From contig CP070718.1 of NCBI GenBank assembly GCA_020350565.1, positions 2,543,082-2,582,159 of the forward strand: a DNA stretch of 39,078 nt. Direction: 5' to 3'. This document shows, piece after piece, positions 2,916 to 37,104 of this stretch. The DNA comes from Phycisphaerales bacterium (GTDB lineage: Bacteria > Planctomycetota > Phycisphaerae > UBA1845). Positions within the stretch are counted from its first letter, which is position 1, and each line of letters opens with the position of its first letter. The translations under genes were made by a program, and so were the position numbers. The notes below the pieces were generated by a model. That model was not told the origin of the DNA and did not search any database. It was given only the letters and a program-made list of their open reading frames with translations.

Positions 2916-3602
2916 TCAGTCTCGCGGCAGCTTGCTGAGACCTTCGTTCGAGCCCACGAGGATCAGCACGTCACCATCCAGGATCTTCGTATCCGGATCC
3001 GGGACGATGATCGACGATCGGACGGCCGCCGCCCCTTCCTCTCCCGGGGGGGGGCTCTGAGGCCGGCTGATGGCGATCAGGTTGATGCCGTATTGATTCC
3101 GCAGCATGAGCGCCTTGGGTGTCTTGCCACAGAAGGCGCTGGGCGCGTCCACGTGGATCATACTGAAACCTTCGCCGAGCTCGACGTACTCGCGGATACG
3201 AGGCAAAGTAAGCCGGTGCGCCCAGCGATTGGCCGCCTCATGCTCGGGGTTGGCGATCTCGTCCGCACCGACCTTGCGCAGGATCCTCGCCTGGATGTCG
3301 CTCTCCGCCCGGGAGATGATTCGGTTCACTTTCAGGGATTTCAGCAGGGCGACCGTCAAAGCCGCCGACTCGAAATGCTCACCAATCCCCACAACAGCGA
3401 CATCAACCTGATCGACACCCTGGGCCTTGAGCGCTTCCTCATCCGTACTGTCGAGACAGACGGCCAGCGTGACCTGGTCACGCATGCTTTCGACCAACGC
3501 GGAGTTGCGATCGATCGCAATCACCTCCACACCATACTCGCTCAGGACTCGTGCGAGCTCCTTACCGAATCGACCCAATCCAATGACCGCAACCTTACTC
3601 AT
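2916..3602 (-). CDS. ktrA: TrkA/KtrA-family potassium uptake regulatory (RCK) protein
   Basis: Cytosolic gating subunit of a Ktr/Trk potassium uptake system. It forms a ring on the membrane subunit and responds to nucleotides. The protein is 228 residues when started at MSKVAVIGLG. This ATG at 3602 has AGGA upstream and sits at the start of the Rossmann fold; an open extension to 3680 has no family similarity I recognise. The RCK_N domain shows the GLGRFG dinucleotide-binding loop (residues 8-13) and an acidic residue after the second strand (IAIDRN). The C-terminal half, from about residue 135, looks like an RCK_C (TrkA_C) domain. In Firmicutes, RCK_C domains of KtrA/KtrC are established c-di-AMP receptors. 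That is notable here because a diadenylate cyclase gene lies at 30.7-31.6 kb. It follows the membrane subunit gene by 82 bp on the same strand, so the two are probably cotranscribed. Confidence 0.92.
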   Translation of the reverse strand: MSKVAVIGLGRFGKELARVLSEYGVEVIAIDRNSALVESMRDQVTLAVCLDSTDEEALKAQGVDQVDVAVVGIGEHFESAALTVALLKSLKVNRIISRAESDIQARILRKVGADEIANPEHEAANRWAHRLTLPRIREYVELGEGFSMIHVDAPSAFCGKTPKALMLRNQYGINLIAISRPQSPPPGEEGAAAVRSSIIVPDPDTKILDGDVLILVGSNEGLSKLPRD

Positions 3603-3684
3603 CGTTCGTTTTTCCTGATTTCGCGGCTTGCTGCGGCTCCCGGTCTGCGCCAACGTATGCTGAAACAGCTTCCCTTCCAATCTC

Positions 3685-5526
3685 TCATCCGATCGTCACC
3701 TGCTCGCTCGGATACTCGTAACGCGGTGGAACGGTGGGACCTGCCAGCGCGATCAGCAGCGTCAGCGGGCCGAGTCGTCCGGCGAACATGGCCGCTATGA
3801 TCACCAACCGTCCCGCCACCGTCAAATGGGGGGTCAGACCCGTCGACAGACCGACGGTGCCACAGGCTGACACCGACTCAAACACTGCCTCGCGCATGGA
3901 GACGGACTCGGTATACATGAGGAGTATCGCCGCCAGGCCCACGAGGAGAAACATGATGAAGGCAATGGCGGCCACCCGGCGGATGATCATCTCAGGGATC
4001 GTACGTCCGAACGCCTCGACGTTTCGGCGCCCGCGTATGGTGGCCAGCACGCCTAGGCACAGGACCGCCAGCCCCACGGTCTTCACGCCGCCGGCCGTCG
4101 ATGCCGGCGAACCACCGATGAACATCAACAGGGCCGCCAGGGCGTGGGACTCAGGCGACAGGGAATGGACGTCCATCTGCACGGTGTTGAAACCCGCCGT
4201 ACGGCAGGTCACCGAAAGGAAGAGGGCGTCGAGTATGCGGCCACCCAAGGAAGCCTCACGCATCACCGTACCGCCGGGGCCTTCTCCGACCTCACCCATC
4301 GACCCCCGCCGTGATTCGAGAACCACGAAGCCCAGGGTACCCACAAGAATGAGAAGCAGCGAAGTGGTCAGAACGATCTTCGTATGAAGCGAGAAGCGGT
4401 GGCGAAGTCGTGGAGCGTGAAAGGCCCCACGTCCCGCGACGCGCGTCGTCAGACGATGGAAGCTGACCTTCATGGCTCTCCACAGATCGGAGACGACGGG
4501 GAAGCCCAGACCACCGATGGTAATCAACGGGATCACCACGAGGTATACCTGCCATGCACGTTGATAGGCCGTCAGGCTGTCACTGCGCAGGGCGAAGCCG
4601 GCATTGCAGAACGCACTGATCGCGTGGAAGACGCTCTGATAGACGCGAAGCTCCGGCGTACCGACGTCTCGCCACATGGGGTACAGCATCGCGGCGCCGA
4701 TCGCTTCGATGACGAACGCGGACGCCACGATGAACCAGATCATCCGCCGCATGTCCCCTAATGTCTGATGGCCCAAGGTATCCTGCATGGCCAGCGATTG
4801 GCGCAGAGAAAGCTGCCGCCCGACGAGCAAACCGAAGAGCCCGCCAAAGACCATGATCCCCAGCCCACCCAATTGAATGAGGATGAGAATCACGGACTGT
4901 CCCACGGGCGTGAAGTCGCTACCCGTGTCGTAGACCACCAGGCCGGTAACGCAAGTGGCGCTTACCGATGTGAACAGGCAGTTGACCAGGTGGCGCGCCA
5001 CGTTGAAGTCCGGCGCCTCGTAGACGTGCGGCTGGACCGAACGGGGCAGCGCCAAGGCCAGTGTCCCCGCCAGGATGAGCCCGGCAAACGTCAGCACCAT
5101 CAGCCGGGCAGGGTGGAGCCGGCTCTGAGATAACGACAAATTCAGCCGAACCACCTCGATCCCCAGTCGGGTCACCAGCAGGATTTGCATGGCCGCGATA
5201 TAGAGAGCGGAGAGTTTGAGCACCGGGCGCGTGCTCCGGTCGACCTCCAGAAAGAGAAAGACGAGCAGCACAGCGCCCAGCAGCAGTAGATCGAGCCAGA
5301 AGCCACGGAGTGTCTTCAGCTTGTGCGGCGAGCGCGCGAGCTCGTATCCTCGCGAGAATACATACGCGACAACCGCGGCGGCTTGCACGCCGATCAGAAG
5401 CCACAAGGGCAAAGGCGGCTCGATGAAGCCGAATTCCAGGGCGAGAGAAACCAGCGCGAGCGCGGCAATCACCTTAACGGCAAGCCGCAGCTTCGATGGA
5501 ACGATGGGTGATGTGCTAAGGTTCAT
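3685..5526 (-). CDS. ktrB: TrkH/KtrB-family potassium transporter membrane subunit
   Basis: Potassium-translocating subunit partnering the RCK protein encoded just downstream. The 613 residues carry the four pore loops of the superfamily, with filter motifs near TCVTG (191-195), CNAGF (307-311), CRTAGF (441-446) and CGTVG (555-559). The intramembrane gate loop GGSPASTAGGVK (471-482) follows the third pore. The conserved Gly of each filter is present, fitting potassium selectivity. The protein is longer than typical KtrB (about 450): roughly 130 extra N-terminal residues form four predicted membrane segments before the first TrkH unit. The start at 5526 is followed at once by hydrophilic residues and TM1; its ribosome-binding site is weak (AGG close to the ATG). 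recG lies 133 bp upstream on the same strand. Confidence 0.93.
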   Translation of the reverse strand: MNLSTSPIVPSKLRLAVKVIAALALVSLALEFGFIEPPLPLWLLIGVQAAAVVAYVFSRGYELARSPHKLKTLRGFWLDLLLLGAVLLVFLFLEVDRSTRPVLKLSALYIAAMQILLVTRLGIEVVRLNLSLSQSRLHPARLMVLTFAGLILAGTLALALPRSVQPHVYEAPDFNVARHLVNCLFTSVSATCVTGLVVYDTGSDFTPVGQSVILILIQLGGLGIMVFGGLFGLLVGRQLSLRQSLAMQDTLGHQTLGDMRRMIWFIVASAFVIEAIGAAMLYPMWRDVGTPELRVYQSVFHAISAFCNAGFALRSDSLTAYQRAWQVYLVVIPLITIGGLGFPVVSDLWRAMKVSFHRLTTRVAGRGAFHAPRLRHRFSLHTKIVLTTSLLLILVGTLGFVVLESRRGSMGEVGEGPGGTVMREASLGGRILDALFLSVTCRTAGFNTVQMDVHSLSPESHALAALLMFIGGSPASTAGGVKTVGLAVLCLGVLATIRGRRNVEAFGRTIPEMIIRRVAAIAFIMFLLVGLAAILLMYTESVSMREAVFESVSACGTVGLSTGLTPHLTVAGRLVIIAAMFAGRLGPLTLLIALAGPTVPPRYEYPSEQVTIG

Positions 5527-28340: not shown

Positions 28341-30656
28341 TCACGGGCCGTCGCCCCCTATTGGCAGGCGTTCCGCCATCGCGGCGGATGCTTCGGTGGC
28401 CTCCCGGGCCTCGCTGTTTTGCAGGAACTGCACTCGGATTGGCTCACGGCTGTCCAAATGCACGTCACGCTGCGGGAATGCGATGACGATGCCTGCCTCC
28501 CGAAACAGCGCGTCGACCATGTAACGGATGTCGCTCTCCACAATGCGGCGATCCATGATGCGCCGCATGCGAACCCAGAAGTGCGCTTCAAAGATCAGTG
28601 CATTGTCGCCGAAATCGGAAAACAGAACAATAGGCTCCGGTTTGGGTAACACCTTGCCATGCTCGTCAAGCGCCTTCCGAATCAGCCGGGTGACTTCGCG
28701 TGTGGGAGATCCATAGACGACGCCTACGATGATGTGCGTGCGGTACCTATCGTCGGTCAGCGTCCAGTTGACGACGTTCTTCTCAAGAAACGAACTGTTC
28801 GGAACGATGATGTCCATGTTTTCTGGTGAGCGCACCCGCGTGCTGCGAGGCCCGATCCGGGCTACTATGCCGATCAGCTCCTCGATCTCGATCAAATCCC
28901 CCACCCGAATCGGGCGCTCGGCCAGCAAAATGAGCCCGCTGATGAAATTATTCATGATGTTCTGGCTGCCGAACCCTATGCCGATCGCGAGGGCACCGCC
29001 GAGGATGGTGAACGCGGTCAGCGGGACGTTCACGATACGGAACGAGAGCATCGTGACGGTCAGGACGAGCACATAGAACAGCAGTGATTGAATCGCTGCT
29101 GCCGCATTCTCGTTCAGCCCCAAACGGGGCAGTAAACGCCGGCCCAGCATGTTCGTAGCGACGCGTGACAACAGAAGTCCAACGACCAGCAGGATGATCC
29201 CGATCAGGATCTTCCGCACCGTGATCGGATTGTCCTGAATGGTGGTGATTTCATAGTTCCAGACGCCGATGACGGTGCTCCAGAACGCACTGAGTCGTTC
29301 TCCCCAGGTAACCGTTTCAACTTCCGCGCTGATCTGGCTGAGTAGCTTCTCGTGCAGTCTCTGCGCGGACTCCAGGCGATTGATCGTGTCCTCGTGGATG
29401 CGTATGAGACTGCCGAGTTGACGCTGCTGTTCCTCTCGCCAGCGCGATACTCCCGGTGCGGCGTCAGGGCTGGCGCTGATGCTGGACTGGAGCGTGGCAG
29501 CTTCGGTTCTCAGCTCGGTCAGGCGCCTCGAGTGAAGACGCAGGTCACGCTCGAGCTGCGCGAGCGATTGGCGCGTCTCCGTTTCCCAGGCGGACAGCTC
29601 ATTGCCACTTGCTCTCTGGTTAAACGTCTGGTGGCGGCGGCCCCAAACTTTTCGAGATTCCGCCAGCGCCTGGAGCTGCTGCCCGAGCAGTGCGACTTCT
29701 CGCTGTCGAGCCTGCCTGGCCAGCCGGCGGGCATCGACCTCCTCAACAACAGCTGGCTCTCTGGCCGGTGATGCATCGAGCCTCTGGCGCGCGTCCAGCC
29801 ACTGTGCGTCACGAACGCCTAGATCCACGGAAGCCCATTCCAGAGCCTGCTTGACCCGGTATTCCTCCTCGTCGATCTGCGCGAGAAACGTGTCCAGTTC
29901 CTGTTGGCTGAATAGGACGTCGCTCGCAATGAGATCGATCTTCTCTTGCAGAAACATAACTCGCAGTTTCTGCGTCTCTGTTTCGAACCTCTGATTCTCG
30001 AGCTCAGTTTGCCGGAGGCGGACCTCCTGGGCGGCCGCGCGGCTGCCGAGCTGAGCGATACGAAGCGCAACGCTGAGGGCAGGTCTCTGGTCCTCGTCCT
30101 GGTTCGTTTCAAGAGCCTCTTTCGCCTGGCGCCGAGCCCTTTCCTTTTGCTCCTGTACCAGCTTGGCGGCACTCAGGGCTGACTGCACCGCCTCGATCGC
30201 GTCAGCAAGTGATCGTTCGCGTGTCGTTTCCGTCGCTAATTGATCGCGTAGGCTCTCGAGCAGTCGGAAAGCGAAGGGTCTTGGCTCCGCCGGACCGTGG
30301 ACCCGCAGGTTGTCCAAGTCAGCTACGAGTTGTGCCTTGGACGCTTCAAGCTCCGTTGCGTGTTCGTGGGCTGCGAGAATCTGCTTGTAGAGAACGTCGA
30401 GACGGTTCAGCAGTTCGATTTCTCTTGTAAGTGTTTCTGGTGGCTCCTGACCTTCAGCCGATACCGATTCAAGCGCGGCCTTCGCTGCATTCAGCTGCAA
30501 GGCCAGCTTTTCCTGCTCGCTCGCAATCTGTTGCTGGTATGAGACGGGCTGGCTCTTTGCGGGAAGTTCAGTCCCGGAAATCTGTTGGGCAAACGCATGG
30601 GACGACGCAAGAAGCGTGAGCCCGATGAACAGTGTGACGCGAAGGCGACGTGTCAT
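28341..30656 (-). CDS. MscS-family mechanosensitive channel with periplasmic coiled-coil domain
   Basis: Probable channel that opens on membrane tension to release solutes during hypo-osmotic shock. The 771-residue protein starts MTRRLRVTLFIG with a signal peptide ending SSHAFA. ATG 30656 is chosen for its GGAG six bases upstream. About 430 mostly helical, Gln/Glu/Arg-rich residues with long coiled-coil heptads follow, as in the MscK/KefA and YbiO-like large channels. Then come several membrane segments and the MscS core: the pore helix with LGGALAIGIGFGSQNIMNNFISGLILLAERPIRVGD, split here as AIGIGFGSQNIMNN and ERPIRVGD, then the beta domain with PNSSFLEKNVVNWT and a C-terminal alpha-beta domain. 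It is 66 bp downstream of the diadenylate cyclase gene on the same strand, so it is likely the last gene of that operon. Gating ligands are unknown. Confidence 0.9.
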   Translation of the reverse strand: MTRRLRVTLFIGLTLLASSHAFAQQISGTELPAKSQPVSYQQQIASEQEKLALQLNAAKAALESVSAEGQEPPETLTREIELLNRLDVLYKQILAAHEHATELEASKAQLVADLDNLRVHGPAEPRPFAFRLLESLRDQLATETTRERSLADAIEAVQSALSAAKLVQEQKERARRQAKEALETNQDEDQRPALSVALRIAQLGSRAAAQEVRLRQTELENQRFETETQKLRVMFLQEKIDLIASDVLFSQQELDTFLAQIDEEEYRVKQALEWASVDLGVRDAQWLDARQRLDASPAREPAVVEEVDARRLARQARQREVALLGQQLQALAESRKVWGRRHQTFNQRASGNELSAWETETRQSLAQLERDLRLHSRRLTELRTEAATLQSSISASPDAAPGVSRWREEQQRQLGSLIRIHEDTINRLESAQRLHEKLLSQISAEVETVTWGERLSAFWSTVIGVWNYEITTIQDNPITVRKILIGIILLVVGLLLSRVATNMLGRRLLPRLGLNENAAAAIQSLLFYVLVLTVTMLSFRIVNVPLTAFTILGGALAIGIGFGSQNIMNNFISGLILLAERPIRVGDLIEIEELIGIVARIGPRSTRVRSPENMDIIVPNSSFLEKNVVNWTLTDDRYRTHIIVGVVYGSPTREVTRLIRKALDEHGKVLPKPEPIVLFSDFGDNALIFEAHFWVRMRRIMDRRIVESDIRYMVDALFREAGIVIAFPQRDVHLDSREPIRVQFLQNSEAREATEASAAMAERLPIGGDGP

Positions 30657-30722
30657 AGTCCTCTCCGATGCACCCCGACATAATGAACCGCTAATCGGCG
30701 CGGCCATACGAGTCCGAGCTTC

Positions 30723-31649
30723 TCACGCCCCGGGGGATTGAATCGGTCCCAAAGGTACCTCCGGATCCATTTGCAGCACCAGTTCGCCGCGGGAAAATGC
30801 TCGGACGAAGCCGTCAGTCGCCGATACCACAACCGCAGTGGCATGCGTGCGGCATGTTACCGAGGCTGCGGTAGTGTGGCGTGCCCCCAGACCAGCGGGG
30901 ACATCAACGGACGCCTTCGGCGCAGCGAGAAACGCCCCTGCCGTCCGAATGAGCCCGTCGCCCCGGACAATGAACGCACCGTCCAACTTGGCAAGTTCAA
31001 TCAGCATCTGGTGGATCGCTGGGTTCGTCAGCATGCGATCCGGGTCCTCATGGCCGTGGAACGGATTCAGAATGAGTTGCCTTGAACCCTTCGCAACCTC
31101 GTCCGAATCCCCGAGCACGAACAGAGCACCAATGGGTTTGCCCTGCCGGGTGATCATTCCGATCTTGCACGCCACACGGAGGGCCACCTCCATGACGCTG
31201 GGGCGGATTCCATCCGTCAGGCGCACCATTTCTGAGAGGGCCACCTCCGCCACATTTGCTTCGACGTCGGTGATGAGAACAAGATCGCCGCCGCCGTGGC
31301 ACAAATCGTGTCCGACTGCACACACCACCAAGTCGCCGACCGCTACCTTGCCTGCGTTCAGAGCCATGGAGACAGCATGACGGGCCTGCCGGTACTTGTT
31401 CGCCACCCGCATGGACAACCGTAACGCATCGGACCCGTCGCGTTTGAGGGCGTCGTAAGTGTCGCCGTTAGGAGTCGCTGCAACAACGGAAAGGCCGGCT
31501 CCCCTCTCCTTCACATGCCCGAATAGCACGCCAGTCTCGGTCCCGCAGATCACGCGGTCGGCGCCGACTGCCTGTGCAACTTGCACAATCATTCGCGCCA
31601 GGTCTGCATCTGACCGAACCATCTTGGCTTCTTTAGCTTTTCGGGCCAT
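30723..31649 (-). CDS. DacZ-like diadenylate cyclase (PK_C-like plus DAC domain)
   Basis: Predicted to make cyclic di-AMP from two ATP. The C-terminal DAC (DisA_N) domain (about 200-295) has the DGA motif in LDGAFIVRGDGLI (D223-A225) and GLGARHTTAASVT (254-266) at the place of the RHR motif, followed by THATAVVVSATDGFVRAFSRG. The third residue of RHR is Thr here. The N-terminal part (about 14-145) resembles the C-terminal domain of pyruvate kinase, with CGTETGVLFGH, RLSMRVANKYRQARHAV and GDLVVCAVGHDL. This domain order is that of archaeal DacZ, not of the common bacterial DisA, CdaA or CdaS. No membrane segment is seen, so it should be cytosolic. It is 31 bp after the ATP-grasp gene and 66 bp before the MscS gene. 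Confidence 0.82.
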   Translation of the reverse strand: MARKAKEAKMVRSDADLARMIVQVAQAVGADRVICGTETGVLFGHVKERGAGLSVVAATPNGDTYDALKRDGSDALRLSMRVANKYRQARHAVSMALNAGKVAVGDLVVCAVGHDLCHGGGDLVLITDVEANVAEVALSEMVRLTDGIRPSVMEVALRVACKIGMITRQGKPIGALFVLGDSDEVAKGSRQLILNPFHGHEDPDRMLTNPAIHQMLIELAKLDGAFIVRGDGLIRTAGAFLAAPKASVDVPAGLGARHTTAASVTCRTHATAVVVSATDGFVRAFSRGELVLQMDPEVPLGPIQSPGA

Positions 31650-31680: not shown

Positions 31681-32727
31681 CTACAACGTGCAGATTTCGT
31701 CATTGTCAAAGTTGCGCCCGTAGAAATTCATGTACTGGACCTTGCGATCAACCGCGTCGATAACGTAGCGTGCAAAGTTGATATTGGTAAACTTTTGTGC
31801 GCTGCCTAGCCCTCCCGGACTGAACACGTTGATCTCCATGAGCTTGTCCCCCACGATGTCGAGTCCGACCAGGAACATCCCGTCCTGGACCAGCTTGGGC
31901 CGTACAATCTCTGCAATGCGCAAGGCTGTGGCCCCGATTTCAGCCTCCCGGAGCTTGCCCCCCGCGTGGATGTTCGAGCGCATATCGCCCCCTGTGCGTA
32001 CACGACGGAACGCGGCGTACTTGCCTTTCACTTGCAGTGGACGCCCGTTCATGATGAAAAGCCGCGTGTCGCCCTCCTCTGCAGCCGGCAGGTATTCTTG
32101 AGCAATGACGTACCCGTCACGGCTGACCGCATCGATCATCTGGTTGAGGTTCGGAATATCCTCTGGTCGGACGAGGAATACACTGGATCCACCCGAACCC
32201 TGAAGCGGCTTGAGCACGCACCTTCCTTGGTCCTTCACGAAGGCCTTGATATCATCACGGTCTCGCGTGATTAACGTATTGGGGCGCACCTCAGCCGGAA
32301 ACAGTTGGAAATACATCTTGCTGTTCGCTTTGGCGAGGCCGTTGGGGTCGTTCACCACGACGACTCCGCGGCGCATGGCCAGTCGCCCAAACTCGGTTGC
32401 AACCGTGGCAGCCCAGGGGCGCCGGATCACGTCATCTGAGGGGACATTTCTCAGCATCAGAGCGTCCAGGTCATCCACGGTGATACGCTCGATTACGGCC
32501 CTTTTCTTATTCTGCAGATCTGCGAGGTACGACTCATGGCTGCCGTATTTCCTCTTGGGCGTTGTGTGCGCTCGAGCCCGAATGCACTCGTCGCTGTCGT
32601 AAGCCAGGTCGCCGACGCCGATCGTCCAGACCTCATGGCCCTGGTTGAGGGCAGCGTGAGCGAGTCGCGTTGTTGTGAAGCCGGGCTCCTCGGTCTTGAC
32701 ATCATTGACTATAAAGGCAATCTTCAT
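31681..32727 (-). CDS. GshB-like ATP-grasp ligase
   Basis: ATP-dependent carboxylate-amine ligase of the glutathione synthetase fold, 348 residues. Similar to GshB in order: MKIAFIVND, then VVNDPNGLAKANSKMY (about 127-142), the ATP-binding VLKPLQGSGGSSVFLV, AQEYLPAAEEGDTRLFIMNG, and the metal-binding end GLDIVGDKLMEINVFSPGGL. The final motif is EINVFSPGG where GshB usually has EINVTSPT, and no gamma-glutamylcysteine synthetase gene is near, so the product may be a different peptide-like compound. The ATG at 32727 has AGGAGG five bases upstream and overlaps the stop of the preceding gene (ATGA), which points to translational coupling. The next gene, the diadenylate cyclase, begins 31 bp downstream. 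Confidence 0.9.
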   Translation of the reverse strand: MKIAFIVNDVKTEEPGFTTTRLAHAALNQGHEVWTIGVGDLAYDSDECIRARAHTTPKRKYGSHESYLADLQNKKRAVIERITVDDLDALMLRNVPSDDVIRRPWAATVATEFGRLAMRRGVVVVNDPNGLAKANSKMYFQLFPAEVRPNTLITRDRDDIKAFVKDQGRCVLKPLQGSGGSSVFLVRPEDIPNLNQMIDAVSRDGYVIAQEYLPAAEEGDTRLFIMNGRPLQVKGKYAAFRRVRTGGDMRSNIHAGGKLREAEIGATALRIAEIVRPKLVQDGMFLVGLDIVGDKLMEINVFSPGGLGSAQKFTNINFARYVIDAVDRKVQYMNFYGRNFDNDEICTL

Positions 32728-34616
32728 GGGTACCTCCTAATCAGATCGAGGACTGTCATTCCATTCCTCAGCAAGGCGAGTCGCTCGCGCGCACCATCCA
32801 TGTCCATGTAGCGAGGACGCAAAGGCGGCTCCCGCAGAATGCCGCGGCGACGAAGCTCGCGAATAATCGGTATGTGTTCAAAGGCGATCTTGCCGACAAG
32901 TAATGGTTCCAGATCACCACCACTCTTCAGGTATTCCAGTAGTTGACAGAGCCCGCGGAGGTAAACTGCATCCTTGGTCAGGCCGCCGCCGCGGTAGACG
33001 CGAAGCGCGATCGAGAATGCCGTCCGCTTCTCGAAACCGTAAGCCTCGTGCATCTCGGTGAACGTCTGGATAAACGGCGCGCCGCCAAGCAGCCGGTGTG
33101 CGGCCAATACGCGCGCAGCCAAGAGCCGCAGACGGGAACGGCTCAGGCCGCCCACCAGGTATTCAGACAGCACCGCGATCCCCTCCTGGAGAGCCTCATA
33201 ACCGGCCAGCCCGGAATAGAGCTGTCTGAGCGGCTGGGCGCGTCCGTTGTAGTACGTCAACACGTGCGTCCCAATCTCATGTTGCAGCAACGCCTCGACA
33301 CGGCTCGCGGGAATTCGGGCCTCCTTGCCAATGAACAGCGCGCCTCGCGAGACCATGAGCCCGTTGCCAATGTCGTCCCTGATCTCTACCTTCGCCGCTA
33401 GATCCGTCCGCTTCGCAGCGTATTGGCGTAACTCGTCTTCGGCGCGCTCGGCAAACGCCTCGGCCCCTAATCGGCTCCGGCGCTCCTCGCTGGGTTTCCT
33501 GGGCAAGCGCTGTAGCAGTTCCTCTGCAAGACGCAGCAGGGGCTCTTCGACGTTGCCGTAGAGTTGAACGCTGCCATACATGAATCGCGGCGAGTTGATA
33601 TCGCCAAGCATGGTGATCTGGCGGTCCAACTCGTCCCGCTTCTGGCGGAAAATGTCCGCAATCGCAGGGTCTTCAACGCGCTCGATCAGGATCTTGAAGA
33701 GCCGACGTTTGAGGATAGGAGGATCGATGGCCAGTGGCCGGTAATGAAAGTTGGGTGTCCGACTATACTTGCTCAATTGGAAATCTCGCCAAGCCGCCTC
33801 CGAGTTGACCGGCGTGACCTGAAGCAGGAAGTCGAACCCGTCCGCAACCTCCGCAAGCTGTCGGTCAATGCCGAACACGACCTTCCGAATCACTCGACGC
33901 CCAAGGGCTTGGTAGTGAGGCGGTCGGTGCGTCGTGTGCGTGCGTGTGAACTGGTAGAAGCTGCGTTGCAGCGCGCGAGAGAGCTGGCGACGAAGGGTGC
34001 GCAGAACAATTGGAAACAGATCTTCGGAGCCGGGAGATCGGTAGACTGGGGCAACCTCGAGCCCGACAACATGCCAATCCGGCTCTCGGGCCGCCAGGCT
34101 CCCGCTGCCCATAGGATGGCAGCGACTCGAACGCACTATCTCTACCGTAGCAGTGTTCCGGTCCACCGAAATCCGAGAGAGCGCCTCCTCAAGAGTATCC
34201 AGGAAACGGCCCAGCATTTCGCGTCGAGGCACGTGGATTCGAAATCGCGGCTGCGCATGAAGTCCGTCACGCTCGTGCGCTGAGCTGGGCGGACCGGCCC
34301 ACAGTTCCAAGATGAGGACTGCGCCGAACTGGCCGCAAAGGGTGCCTACGATCTCGCCAAGGAGGTTTTTAAGGCTTGTCTGCAGCGAGCGTGAGCCTGA
34401 CGCGAGGATATAAGACGGTTCGGTCGTCACCAGTCCGGCCGTACCAGGGTCATCGCCTTTGACTGGCCGGCGGTACACGCACACGACGGGCAGCGGACGA
34501 TCCACCTGGATACGCCCCCAAATCGGCAAAGCGCGGCGTACGCGCTTGCCCTCTCGAACGCGCTTGCAGACATCGTCAATGAAGCGGGCCGTGATTACCT
34601 TGCGCATAGCCGCCAT
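32724..34616 (-). CDS. DUF1704 / QEGLA-motif metallopeptidase-like protein
   Basis: About 630 residues, belonging to the family annotated as flavohemoglobin expression-modulating QEGLA motif protein, whose eukaryotic relatives (MATCAP) are zinc tubulin tyrosine carboxypeptidases. The zinc motif HEIGTH (about 446-451) and the downstream YEALQEGIAVLSEYL (about 473-487), with the conserved Glu, are both intact, so peptidase activity is plausible; the motif reads QEGIA rather than QEGLA. An N-terminal region of about 230 residues precedes this core. Start: a GTG at 34622 is in frame, but ATG 34616 has AAGGG five bases upstream and is preferred. The gene begins within 10 bp of the preceding amidohydrolase stop and overlaps the ATP-grasp gene by 4 bp. 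No flavohemoglobin gene is in the window. The natural substrate is unknown. Confidence 0.87.
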   Translation of the reverse strand: MAAMRKVITARFIDDVCKRVREGKRVRRALPIWGRIQVDRPLPVVCVYRRPVKGDDPGTAGLVTTEPSYILASGSRSLQTSLKNLLGEIVGTLCGQFGAVLILELWAGPPSSAHERDGLHAQPRFRIHVPRREMLGRFLDTLEEALSRISVDRNTATVEIVRSSRCHPMGSGSLAAREPDWHVVGLEVAPVYRSPGSEDLFPIVLRTLRRQLSRALQRSFYQFTRTHTTHRPPHYQALGRRVIRKVVFGIDRQLAEVADGFDFLLQVTPVNSEAAWRDFQLSKYSRTPNFHYRPLAIDPPILKRRLFKILIERVEDPAIADIFRQKRDELDRQITMLGDINSPRFMYGSVQLYGNVEEPLLRLAEELLQRLPRKPSEERRSRLGAEAFAERAEDELRQYAAKRTDLAAKVEIRDDIGNGLMVSRGALFIGKEARIPASRVEALLQHEIGTHVLTYYNGRAQPLRQLYSGLAGYEALQEGIAVLSEYLVGGLSRSRLRLLAARVLAAHRLLGGAPFIQTFTEMHEAYGFEKRTAFSIALRVYRGGGLTKDAVYLRGLCQLLEYLKSGGDLEPLLVGKIAFEHIPIIRELRRRGILREPPLRPRYMDMDGARERLALLRNGMTVLDLIRRYP

Positions 34617-34624
34617 CGTCACCC

Positions 34625-35407
34625 TTACAATCTGGAGAGCTCCTCGAGCACACCCGGGATGGTGGCCCTCAACGCCTCTCTGATGGCCACGATTAGCTGT
34701 TCATCCTGCACGCCCGCCCATTCGTCCATGAAGAACTTCTTGACCTCTATGGCCAGCCCGCAACCGCTCGTCGGAAAGGCCTCATGAAGCCACCTCACGA
34801 AGTTTCCGCCCTGAAACTTGACGTTCTCGCGAACATCCAGCCGGCCGCCCGGAAAATCGAAGCTGCCGAGTTCTGCGATGAAACGATCCACCACCGGCGC
34901 CCAGCGCCGCCGGTCCATGGTGCCGGTTCCGATGTTGACCTGCGGATGACCTTGCTCATCAGCGGGTGGCCCGTCCGGTCCCGCGCGACGGTGGTTGTAG
35001 CTGTGCAAGTCATAAACGACGAACTGCCCGTAGGCACAGGTCAATTCTGTGAATAAGTCTCGCATCGAGGCGTAGAACGCATCGTACTCCGCGAGCGATC
35101 GCCGCACGAATCCGTCGGAGGGCTTGACTTTCCAGACGGAGAGACCCCACGCGTCATCCGGGACCCGGTAGACAGCTTTCTCGCGAGCCCGGTTCAAGTC
35201 CACCTCGAACCTGGACCGCGTCCCAACTACGCGTGTTGGCGCGATAGCGGTCCATCGTCCGGTGAACGGGTCCTCTTCGCGTAAGCGCTCGGCGTCAGAC
35301 AGGGCCATCACCTTCGCCACCTCCGGCCTGAGCTCGTGCCCATCGTGGATCGCCGTGGCCACGAGCTGCCCTCCGCCCAAGTGCAACCGCCAGATTTTCT
35401 CCGCCAT
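34625..35407 (-). CDS. N-formylglutamate amidohydrolase-family protein
   Basis: Metal-dependent amidase-like protein of 260 residues. Family features: TAIHDGHELRPEV near the N-terminus, FEVDLNRAREKAVY, YDLHSYNHRR (about 134-143, His and Asp suited to metal binding) and GCGLAIEVKKFFMDEW. The classic enzyme releases formate from N-formyl-L-glutamate in histidine breakdown, but no hut genes are here and the gene leads an operon with a peptidase-like and an ATP-grasp protein. I infer it acts on an acylated or amide-linked product of that module. ATG 35407 has GGAGG seven bases upstream. It diverges from a sigma-54 activator gene with about 240 bp between. Confidence 0.85.
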   Translation of the reverse strand: MAEKIWRLHLGGGQLVATAIHDGHELRPEVAKVMALSDAERLREEDPFTGRWTAIAPTRVVGTRSRFEVDLNRAREKAVYRVPDDAWGLSVWKVKPSDGFVRRSLAEYDAFYASMRDLFTELTCAYGQFVVYDLHSYNHRRAGPDGPPADEQGHPQVNIGTGTMDRRRWAPVVDRFIAELGSFDFPGGRLDVRENVKFQGGNFVRWLHEAFPTSGCGLAIEVKKFFMDEWAGVQDEQLIVAIREALRATIPGVLEELSRL

Positions 35408-35568: not shown

Positions 35569-35610
35569 TTGAAAACAGCAGTATTATGCCGATACTATAC
35601 GAAGGCTGTT
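35569..35610 (+). promoter_or_regulatory. Candidate proximal promoter with nested inverted repeats
   Basis: TTGAAA (35569-35574) and TACTAT (35593-35598) are 18 bp apart. The same stretch holds nested inverted repeats: AACAGC (35574-35579) with GCTGTT (35605-35610), and AGTAT (35580-35584) with ATACT (35592-35596) around a 7-nt loop. The -10 lies on the inner arm, so this could be an autoregulatory operator or a leader hairpin. Confidence 0.4.
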
Positions 35611-35646
35611 GCCGATGGATCATTAATCGGATGTGGACTACCGATC

Positions 35647-37104
35647 ATGCTTGTGCGTGTTCTGCTGCTTACCAACAGCCCTAGGCTGCGCCACCGCCTG
35701 AGCCGCCTGCTCGACGACCTGGACATTACGTTGACGCACACCGGTGGGCGCAAGGTCTTTTGGGATCGGGTCACCCAGGAACCCGCGGATTTGGTGATCG
35801 TCTCGCGCAGTTGCTTGCCTGACCCAATCGAGGAGACGGTCGCCGTGATTCGAGGGCTGCCGGATAGACCCGACTTGCTCGTCGTGTGGGACGAGGAGGA
35901 TCCCGAGGAGCGCGCCCGATTACTCATCGCCGGCTGCTTCGCTGTCCTTTTCGAAGGGTTGCCGGACGAGACGCTGCGGGAGGCCATTCAGTCTTTCGTG
36001 GTCCGGCGCCGGGACGCGAGCGTCGATCGGATCCGCCGCGAAATCGCGGAAACGGAGTACCGCCTCACCGACTTCGACTCCCCCAATCCAGCGATGAAGA
36101 GCTTCATGAATGTCGTTCGCCGGGTCGTGGAGCCCGACAGTTCGTTGCTGATTCTCGGCGAGACGGGCGTCGGTAAGGAAAGGCTTGCACGCGCGATCCA
36201 TGCCGAAAGCCCGCGTGCCTCGGAGCCGTTCATCCCCGTCAACTGCGCAGCGCTGCCGGAAACCCTCCTTGATGCGGAACTCTTTGGCCATGTGAAAGGT
36301 GCTTTCACCGGCGCTTCCGGTGACCGGCGCGGGTACTTTGAGCTTGCCCACTGCGGTACCGTCTTCTTGGACGAGATTGGGGAACTGCCCAAGCACCTCC
36401 AGATCAAGTTGCTCAGAGTTCTGCAAGAGAGAATGATCCAGCGATTGGGCAGCGAAGAGCCGATCGCAGTCGATGTCCGGATCATGGCGGCCAGCAATCG
36501 GGATTTGGAGCAGGAGATCGATCAGAACCGTTTCCGGCGCGATCTCTACTACCGTCTCGGTGTGGTTACTCTGGAGGTGCCGCCTCTCCGAGAACACCCC
36601 GAGGACATTCCACATTTGCTCGAGCAGTATCTGCAGGAATTTCGGGCGCGGTTTGGACGACCTGTTGCGTCATTCTCACGAGAGGCGATGGACATCTTGG
36701 GCCGATACCGCTGGCCTGGAAACATTCGCGAACTGATCAACGTCGTCGAGCGGGCGGTCATCCTGAGTCAAGGTGTCGTTCTGACGGTCTCGGACCTCCC
36801 GCGCGTTCTGGTGGAGCAGTGCACCGCGGGGAGCCTGCCTGCGGTTGGGAGTTGCGTCACGGTCTCGGGATTGGCGGTCGCGTCGGAGGATCTTCTCACC
36901 AAGCCCTGGAAGAACATGCGCCGTCAGGTTCTCGGCTACCTCGAGCAAGCATACCTGGTGCGCCAATTGACCAAAGCCCATGGGCGAGTCAATGACGCCG
37001 CAGAGAATTCTGGCGTTTCACCCCGCACCCTGTACGAAATGATGAAGCGTCATAGCCTGCGGAAGGAAGACTATCGTACCAAGAAGCGTCCTCGGAGCTC
37101 CTGA
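35647..37104 (+). CDS. Sigma-54 activator (NtrC-type) with degenerate receiver
   Basis: Enhancer-binding protein that opens sigma-54 promoters by ATP hydrolysis. From ATG 35647 it is 485 residues. The N-terminal 115 residues look like a receiver domain (VRVLLLTNSPRLRHRLSRLL), but the strand that should end in the phosphorylated Asp reads DLVIVSRS, with Ser53 at that place, so ordinary phosphorelay control seems lost. The AAA+ domain is complete: Walker A GETGVGKE (171-178), GAFTGA (218-223) for sigma-54 contact, Walker B VFLDEIGEL and the arginine-finger region RFRRDLYYRL. The C-terminus has a Fis-type helix-turn-helix, NDAAENSGVSPRTLYEMMKRH. The start is chosen where receiver similarity begins; an in-frame reading from 35569 runs through the likely promoter. 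It diverges from the amidohydrolase operon, which it may control. Confidence 0.9.
   Translation: MLVRVLLLTNSPRLRHRLSRLLDDLDITLTHTGGRKVFWDRVTQEPADLVIVSRSCLPDPIEETVAVIRGLPDRPDLLVVWDEEDPEERARLLIAGCFAVLFEGLPDETLREAIQSFVVRRRDASVDRIRREIAETEYRLTDFDSPNPAMKSFMNVVRRVVEPDSSLLILGETGVGKERLARAIHAESPRASEPFIPVNCAALPETLLDAELFGHVKGAFTGASGDRRGYFELAHCGTVFLDEIGELPKHLQIKLLRVLQERMIQRLGSEEPIAVDVRIMAASNRDLEQEIDQNRFRRDLYYRLGVVTLEVPPLREHPEDIPHLLEQYLQEFRARFGRPVASFSREAMDILGRYRWPGNIRELINVVERAVILSQGVVLTVSDLPRVLVEQCTAGSLPAVGSCVTVSGLAVASEDLLTKPWKNMRRQVLGYLEQAYLVRQLTKAHGRVNDAAENSGVSPRTLYEMMKRHSLRKEDYRTKKRPRSS

Follow-up and report, generated by a model that had tools for sequence, protein, structure and literature searches.

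A putative archaeal-type diadenylate cyclase encoded beside a mechanosensitive channel gene in a Phycisphaerales bacterium

It was found that a bacterial operon of the order Phycisphaerales includes a gene for an uncommon, archaeal-affiliated variant of the diadenylate cyclase CdaZ. The gene lies in the window, a stretch of 39,078 nucleotides (contig CP070718.1, positions 2,543,082 to 2,582,159), and its predicted product joins a sensor-like domain to a DAC domain. In my reading, to which I assign a probability of about 0.6, the protein belongs to the archaeal CdaZ/DacY branch of diadenylate cyclases; it is predicted to be active, to respond to a phosphorylated metabolite and to be linked with ion transport. 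What stands out here is the archaeal-affiliated variant itself, the loss of a specific loop and the conserved operon. The gene and its two domains are located as follows.

30723..31649, minus strand: archaeal-type (CdaZ/DacY-like) diadenylate cyclase of 308 aa with a PK_C-like sensor and a DAC domain (ORF, Pfam, NCBIfam, AlphaFold2 model and tree)
31263..31616, minus strand: PK_C-like N-terminal domain, residues 12-129 (structure match to the pyruvate kinase C domain, Z 15.8; Pfam PK_C)
30783..31151, minus strand: DAC catalytic domain, residues 167-289 (Pfam PF02457, 1e-17)

The ORF starts with ATG and has no internal stop codon, and the opposite (plus) strand has several stops there. The DAC profile PF02457 matched with 64.3 bits against a cut-off of 27 (E 1e-17). 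The PK_C profile PF02887 matched residues 17-117 with 23.3 bits (7e-5), under its cut-off of 28, and it reached 28.8-31.2 bits, over the cut-off, in three orthologues. Among the NCBIfam subfamily profiles, DacZ ranked first with 142 bits (E 2e-41), followed by DisA (28 bits, 1.5e-6), CdaM (23 bits), CdaA (20 bits, 3e-4) and CdaS (17 bits). The score for the DacZ equivalog NF041371, 141.9 bits, is below the curated cut-off of 430, and the DisA and CdaA equivalogs gave 27.6 and 20.3 bits against cut-offs of 201 and 188.8. The DAC domain of DisA is N-terminal, while that of the window protein is C-terminal. CdaA was split off at 100/100 in the tree. The DacZ_P sensor profile PF21755 gave 17.8 bits, under its cut-off of 27.4. 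An AlphaFold2 model was built with a 66-sequence alignment (mean pLDDT 89.6), and its Foldseek matches were re-aligned for Z and rmsd. Residues 12-129 have the fold of the pyruvate kinase C domain (4yng_G, Z 15.8, rmsd 2.1, 117 residues), and the C-terminal half has the DAC fold (DisA 9y4s, Z 15.1; CdaA 8c4n, Z 15.1; CdaS, Z about 15). Thus, the Pfam, NCBIfam and AlphaFold2/Foldseek results establish that the PK_C-then-DAC architecture is real. The original prediction had proposed exactly this domain order and had set the protein apart from DisA, CdaA and CdaS; the profile search and the structure prediction agree with it on both points.

Is this architecture exceptional in a bacterium? The original prediction took the DacZ order to be surprising in a bacterial genome, and this part does not hold. 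A clear DacZ-like protein is present in about 30 of the 149 sampled Planctomycetota genomes, and named relatives were also found in Verrucomicrobiota, Thermodesulfobacteriota, Spirochaetota, Fibrobacterota, Nitrospinota and others. Bacterial proteins of the DacZ/CdaZ branch whose N-termini are predicted to have the PK_C fold have already been reported, and members of the branch in an operon with MscS were marked (Braun et al. 2019, PMC6741144). Archaea are not the only carriers of the PK_C-DAC order, and a widespread bacterial DacZ is already known. The host genome itself has three DAC genes, which encode a CdaA, a bacterial-type DacZ and the window cyclase. Most genomes of the family, including G294, G348 and G406, carry the bacterial-type DacZ. 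In the host, the linker that joins the sensor to the DAC domain in that resident gene (L002:1426-2409; G000:C1, about 2,168,863-2,169,846) is interrupted by an in-frame TAG; the relative L019 has Leu at this site. The gene may be split or dead, but an error in the sequence is equally likely, since the one-contig assembly has an estimated completeness of only 67%. Four bacterial DacZ proteins of 510-540 aa (L009, L013, L017 and L018) have about 200 extra N-terminal residues that by eye resemble PTS EIIA type-2, an extension that may also be present in many of the other DacZ proteins with 450-500 aa. In several methanogen DAC proteins of 450-700 aa (L092, L093 and L098), the region before the DAC domain looks unlike PK_C; by eye, it is PAS-like in L092 and TPR-like in L098.

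The window-type cyclase is much rarer. Among 51 genomes of the same family, full-length orthologues were found only in G294 (70%), G348 (69%) and G406 (64%), and fragments in G456. These genomes represent different genera of the family, and the cyclase is conserved at 62-68%. No further member turned up in 392 sampled Planctomycetota genomes, where the clade profile gave at most 164 bits outside the clade, compared with 602 bits on the window protein. The four full-length proteins form a single clade (100/99 or better) which is not joined to the bacterial DacZ of the family. In a full-length tree with 15 archaeal sequences, this clade grouped with archaea at 99/92. Under another sampling, it grouped with archaeal CdaZ at 96/85. 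When only the DAC domain was used, the split between archaea plus the window clade on one side and the remaining bacteria on the other had a support of 94/83, and the sister row was a single Halobacteriota sequence. The archaeal affinity was seen with and without the N-terminal domain, in three samplings and under a site-heterogeneous model. An AU test rejected the union of the window clade with the resident bacterial DacZ (p = 2.8e-5 for full length, 3.5e-4 for DAC only), and both tests rule out duplication of the resident DacZ as the source. The exact position of the clade is uncertain because its stem branch is long (0.9-1.9 changes per column). The trees favour, without proving, an archaeal affinity, and the simplest though unproven reading of them is that the gene was transferred from an archaeal lineage. 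The "archaeal-type" label given from the sequence was thus supported by the clustering with archaeal CdaZ/DacY, outside CdaA.

Four short motifs of the protein were compared with their counterparts in relatives.

31530..31541, minus strand: TETG, residues 37-40, aligned with the effector-phosphate loop of pyruvate kinase (profile alignment to TETGNT of the Cryptosporidium enzyme)
31140..31154, minus strand: ITRQG, residues 166-170, at the (E)GREG position of other DacZ-like proteins (G167 and E169 invariant in 140 others)
30975..30983, minus strand: DGA motif, residues 223-225 (D and G invariant in 140 relatives)
30873..30881, minus strand: RHT, residues 257-259 (RH invariant in 140 relatives, third residue free)

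The sensor domain resembles that of methanococci. TETG is present in 4/4 proteins of the window clade and 30/30 methanococcal proteins, and in 0/134 other bacterial DacZ proteins. TPNxxT was found in 3/4, 24/30 and 0/134, and NPFxGH in 4/4, 26/30 and 4/134 of the same groups, respectively; all three motifs were counted post hoc, the sequences having already been seen. Pfam has the sensor families DacZ_P, DacZ_T, DacZ_A and DACZ_N; the best N-domain model was PK_C for the window clade and the methanococci, while in the other bacterial proteins examined it was DacZ_P. When solved structures were searched with the N-domain, a single sequence as query gave nothing useful, and a six-sequence profile of the domain was aligned with the TETG of pyruvate kinase. 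C. parvum pyruvate kinase holds a sulfate at its effector phosphate site through Thr432, Thr434 and Thr437 of this loop, positions that are nearly always Ser or Thr (PMC3467265). In the M. tuberculosis enzyme, the phosphate of AMP is held by Thr374, Gln375, Ser376 and Thr379 (PMC5719368). The window protein keeps the first two phosphate-binding threonines (Thr37 and Thr39), while the third is Leu. Since these two residues of the effector loop are retained, a phosphorylated effector is proposed, and the cyclase is probably controlled by a nucleotide or by a phosphorylated metabolite. To my knowledge, no ligand is known for the PK_C-like domain in archaeal CdaZ and DacZ. Because TETG also occurs in pyruvate kinases, the motif may be ancestral and may have been lost in the other bacterial DacZ proteins.

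The catalytic motifs were counted in an alignment of 140 further DacZ-like sequences, which came from archaea, Planctomycetota and other bacterial phyla. D223, G224, R257, H258 and S276, each invariant in 140/140 of these, are all present in the window protein. It had been noted from the sequence that DGA is intact and that the second motif reads GARHTTAA, and both are correct (the latter starts at residue 255). On the other hand, the emphasis placed on RHT instead of RHR was unwarranted. The third residue is Ala in 50 relatives, Glu in 15, His in 15, Arg in just 11, Trp in 9, Gln in 8 and Thr in 4, with 16 states altogether. RHT also occurs in the family members L069, L079, L123 and L147, and the four full-length proteins of the window clade have Thr, Val, Val and Ala at this site. 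These counts dispose of the idea that RHT is special. The complete RHR characterises CdaA and DisA, and an Arg in third place is not typical of DacZ. In M. tuberculosis DacA, replacement of all three RHR residues by Ala abolished activity (PMC3328451).

What sets the window clade apart lies elsewhere in the domain. G167 and E169 of the (E)GREG sequence, at the start of the DAC domain, are gone in the clade and are kept in 140/140 other proteins. The named-genome scan had used EGREG as its search pattern and was blind to members without it, so the counts were repeated on 63 sequences not picked by the motif; the two residues are present in 63/63. The Lys or Arg at position 217, just before DGA, is likewise found in 140/140 proteins elsewhere and is absent from the window clade. 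The two losses together suggest that the GREG residues and Lys217 may contact each other or share a common partner. Solved CdaA domains have no GREG at the equivalent place, where they read KR-RIGAL, and for this reason the GREG residues and Lys217 are probably not catalytic. The clade also reads SATDG where most relatives have SE/QSTG. As a unique inactivating change this is weakened by the Ala found at the same site, 277, in 5/140 relatives. The original prediction had overlooked the changes at GREG and Lys217 that mark the clade, as well as the resident bacterial DacZ and the operon.

The cyclase gene is the fourth of five genes in an operon on the minus strand, in the order FGase, QEGLA, ATP-grasp, cyclase and MscS, with gaps of at most 31 bp and one overlap. 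A regulator gene is divergent to it.

35569..37104, plus strand: divergent sigma-54-dependent regulator, 511 aa (Pfam Sigma54_activat, 4e-67)
34625..35407, minus strand: FGase, an N-formylglutamate amidohydrolase-like protein of 260 aa, first gene of the operon (Pfam PF05013, 3e-18)
32724..34622, minus strand: QEGLA/MATCAP-type peptidase-like protein, 632 aa, overlapping the ATP-grasp gene (PF08014, 7e-95; TIGR02421, 1e-105)
31681..32727, minus strand: glutathione-synthetase-like ATP-grasp ligase, 348 aa, 31 bp upstream of the cyclase gene (NCBIfam NF009110, 8e-138)
28341..30707, minus strand: MscS/MscK-type mechanosensitive channel, 788 aa, 15 bp downstream of the cyclase gene (Pfam MS_channel_2nd, 3e-22; same-strand spacing)

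In G294, the order is FGase, QEGLA, three ATP-grasps, cyclase, MgtE and a large MscS, and G348 has the same order through MgtE. The contig of G456 ends inside the cyclase gene, and in G406, on a short contig, MgtE lies before the cyclase. In every case in which the flank is available, a channel or MgtE gene adjoins that of the cyclase. Of the genomes of the family, 4/5 with the cyclase also have QEGLA, compared with 1/46 of those without it (Fisher p 1e-4, with no correction for relatedness). The operon of G288 includes MscS but no cyclase. In G127, G197 and G239, which belong to families of the class that are more distant, FGase-QEGLA-ATP-grasp is found without either a cyclase or a channel gene. 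Since the core of the operon exists without the cyclase, and the cyclase co-occurs with QEGLA in the family, it seems that the cyclase was added to an operon that already existed, and its neighbour is in each case an ion channel or a transporter. Compact FGase-QEGLA-ATP-grasp operons with one to three ATP-grasp paralogues were seen in several families of the class (L166, L169, L170 and L171). By eye, a divergent gene whose N-terminus is similar to that of the sigma-54-dependent regulator lies at the equivalent place in the orthologous clusters. Upstream of the operon, no sigma-54 promoter above chance was found in the window, nor in three of four further clusters; the remaining one, the G288 cluster, which lacks the cyclase, has a site with an uncorrected p of about 0.04. 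No c-di-AMP riboswitch was found in the window, where Rfam gave only two tRNAs. Canonical bacterial DacZ genes have diverse neighbours in the sampled loci, and none was linked to an FGase-QEGLA operon or a window-type MscS in 80 loci with flanks of up to 8 kb. A search for plasmid copies returned only haloarchaeal dacZ. A gene for an MgtE-type magnesium transporter lies directly upstream of DacZ-like genes in three Planctomycetota loci (L025, L030 and L156), and L025 and L030 are bacterial-type.

Other explanations have to be weighed against an active cyclase of archaeal affinity. An archaeal contaminant in this metagenome-derived assembly comes to mind with the low completeness estimate; its probability is negligible, as it is refuted by the position of the gene inside a bacterial operon, 31 and 15 bp from its neighbours, by a GC content of 61% like that of the window, and by orthologues in four other genomes of the family from different genera, two of which have the same operon and a third a fragment of it. 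That the host is bacterial, as the original prediction had concluded, is further borne out by RecG and MutL in the window, by chorismate synthase and by named kin that belong to Planctomycetota. A more serious alternative is that the protein is a fast-evolving relative of bacterial DacZ, drawn to archaea by long branches and by retained ancestral PK_C residues. The stem is indeed long, TETG is present in pyruvate kinases, and placing the window clade with Pirellulaceae-type DacZ (AU p 0.06) or with the remaining bacteria (p 0.055) was only marginally worse and not rejected at 5%. However, the archaeal grouping persisted with or without the N-terminal domain and across three samplings, under a site-heterogeneous model, and union with the resident DacZ of the family was rejected. 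I consider this alternative possible but distinctly less probable.

It may also be asked whether the protein makes c-di-AMP at all. A degenerate or purely regulatory DAC paralogue might bind ATP or c-di-AMP without synthesis and modulate the resident cyclases or the adjoining channel. The lost GREG residues and Lys217, the change of E/Q277 to Ala and the two other DAC genes in the genome would fit such a role. On the other side, the DAC core residues are retained in all four full-length clade members, the conservation is high without an internal stop in any member, and CdaA is active though its solved domains have no GREG, which makes the loop dispensable for DAC chemistry as such. A degenerate paralogue therefore seems rather unlikely. 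The operon might instead serve chiefly a peptide or amino-acid ligation pathway (FGase, QEGLA and ATP-grasp), with the cyclase as an optional extra that has a separate role. This is consistent with the cyclase-free cores of G127, G197 and G239 and with the channel-bearing, cyclase-free operon of G288. It accounts less well for the co-occurrence of cyclase and QEGLA and for the constant presence of a channel or MgtE next to the cyclase, and I regard it as less probable, though worth keeping in mind.

Among known systems, the closest is methanococcal CdaZ/DacY, which has the PK_C-DAC order, the PK_C profile match, TETG, TPN, NPFxGH and the tree grouping in common with the window protein. The identity is about 35%; in contrast to these proteins, the window protein lacks GREG and the Lys before DGA and is encoded in a bacterial operon. 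The CdaZ of Methanocaldococcus jannaschii showed activity in a heterologous system (PMC6741144). Haloarchaeal DacZ, such as HVO_1660 of Haloferax volcanii (NF041371), has the same domain order, and H. volcanii dacZ is in an operon with mscS2 (PMC6741144), which resembles the cyclase-MscS linkage of the window. However, the window protein falls far below the cut-off of that model, and none of the sampled Halobacteriota proteins has TETG. The bacterial DacZ proteins with a DacZ_P sensor, widespread in Planctomycetota and other phyla, share the order, DGA and GxRH. They differ in the sensor profile, in lacking TETG and in their invariant GREG, and genomes of the same family carry them separately. 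CdaA, DisA and CdaS have the DAC domain and the catalytic motifs in another domain arrangement, and the scores of 17-28 bits are far under their cut-offs.

How might the system work? By analogy with the family, two DAC domains would pair head to head, each binding ATP via DGA and RH, and the two ATP molecules would be joined into c-di-AMP, in keeping with the conserved active-site residues. The PK_C-like domain would act as a sensor whose TETG loop binds a phosphorylated metabolite or nucleotide and sets the activity. The c-di-AMP would be made next to the mechanosensitive channel of the same operon (MscS here; MgtE, or MgtE and MscS, in the relatives). The likely output would be osmotic or ion homeostasis, given the gene linkage and the H. 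volcanii dacZ-mscS2 operon. The host genome also encodes, besides CdaA, a 7TM-HD protein of the PgpH type of c-di-AMP phosphodiesterase. Genes for a TrkA (TrkA_N and TrkA_C) and a TrkH-type potassium uptake protein lie side by side in the window (2916-5526, minus strand, with TrkA at 2916-3680), and the proteins are possible c-di-AMP targets. The TrkA_C-type domain binds c-di-AMP in other bacteria. With CdaA, the PgpH-type protein and the TrkA-TrkH pair in the genome, a c-di-AMP messenger pathway is probably present and in use in the host. A bolder and rather improbable version of the model is that the archaeal-derived synthase is a dedicated local source of c-di-AMP in its bacterial operon, that its sensor reads a phosphorylated metabolite, and that its product gates or regulates the adjoining MscS or MgtE independently of the host's own CdaA and DacZ.

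In the window clade, the retained effector-loop motif and the defined operon with its ion channel open two questions to direct experiment: which phosphorylated metabolite would be the input, and which transporter would be the output. If the proposal is true, this would be a second-messenger enzyme that crossed the domains of life and coexists with two native versions.
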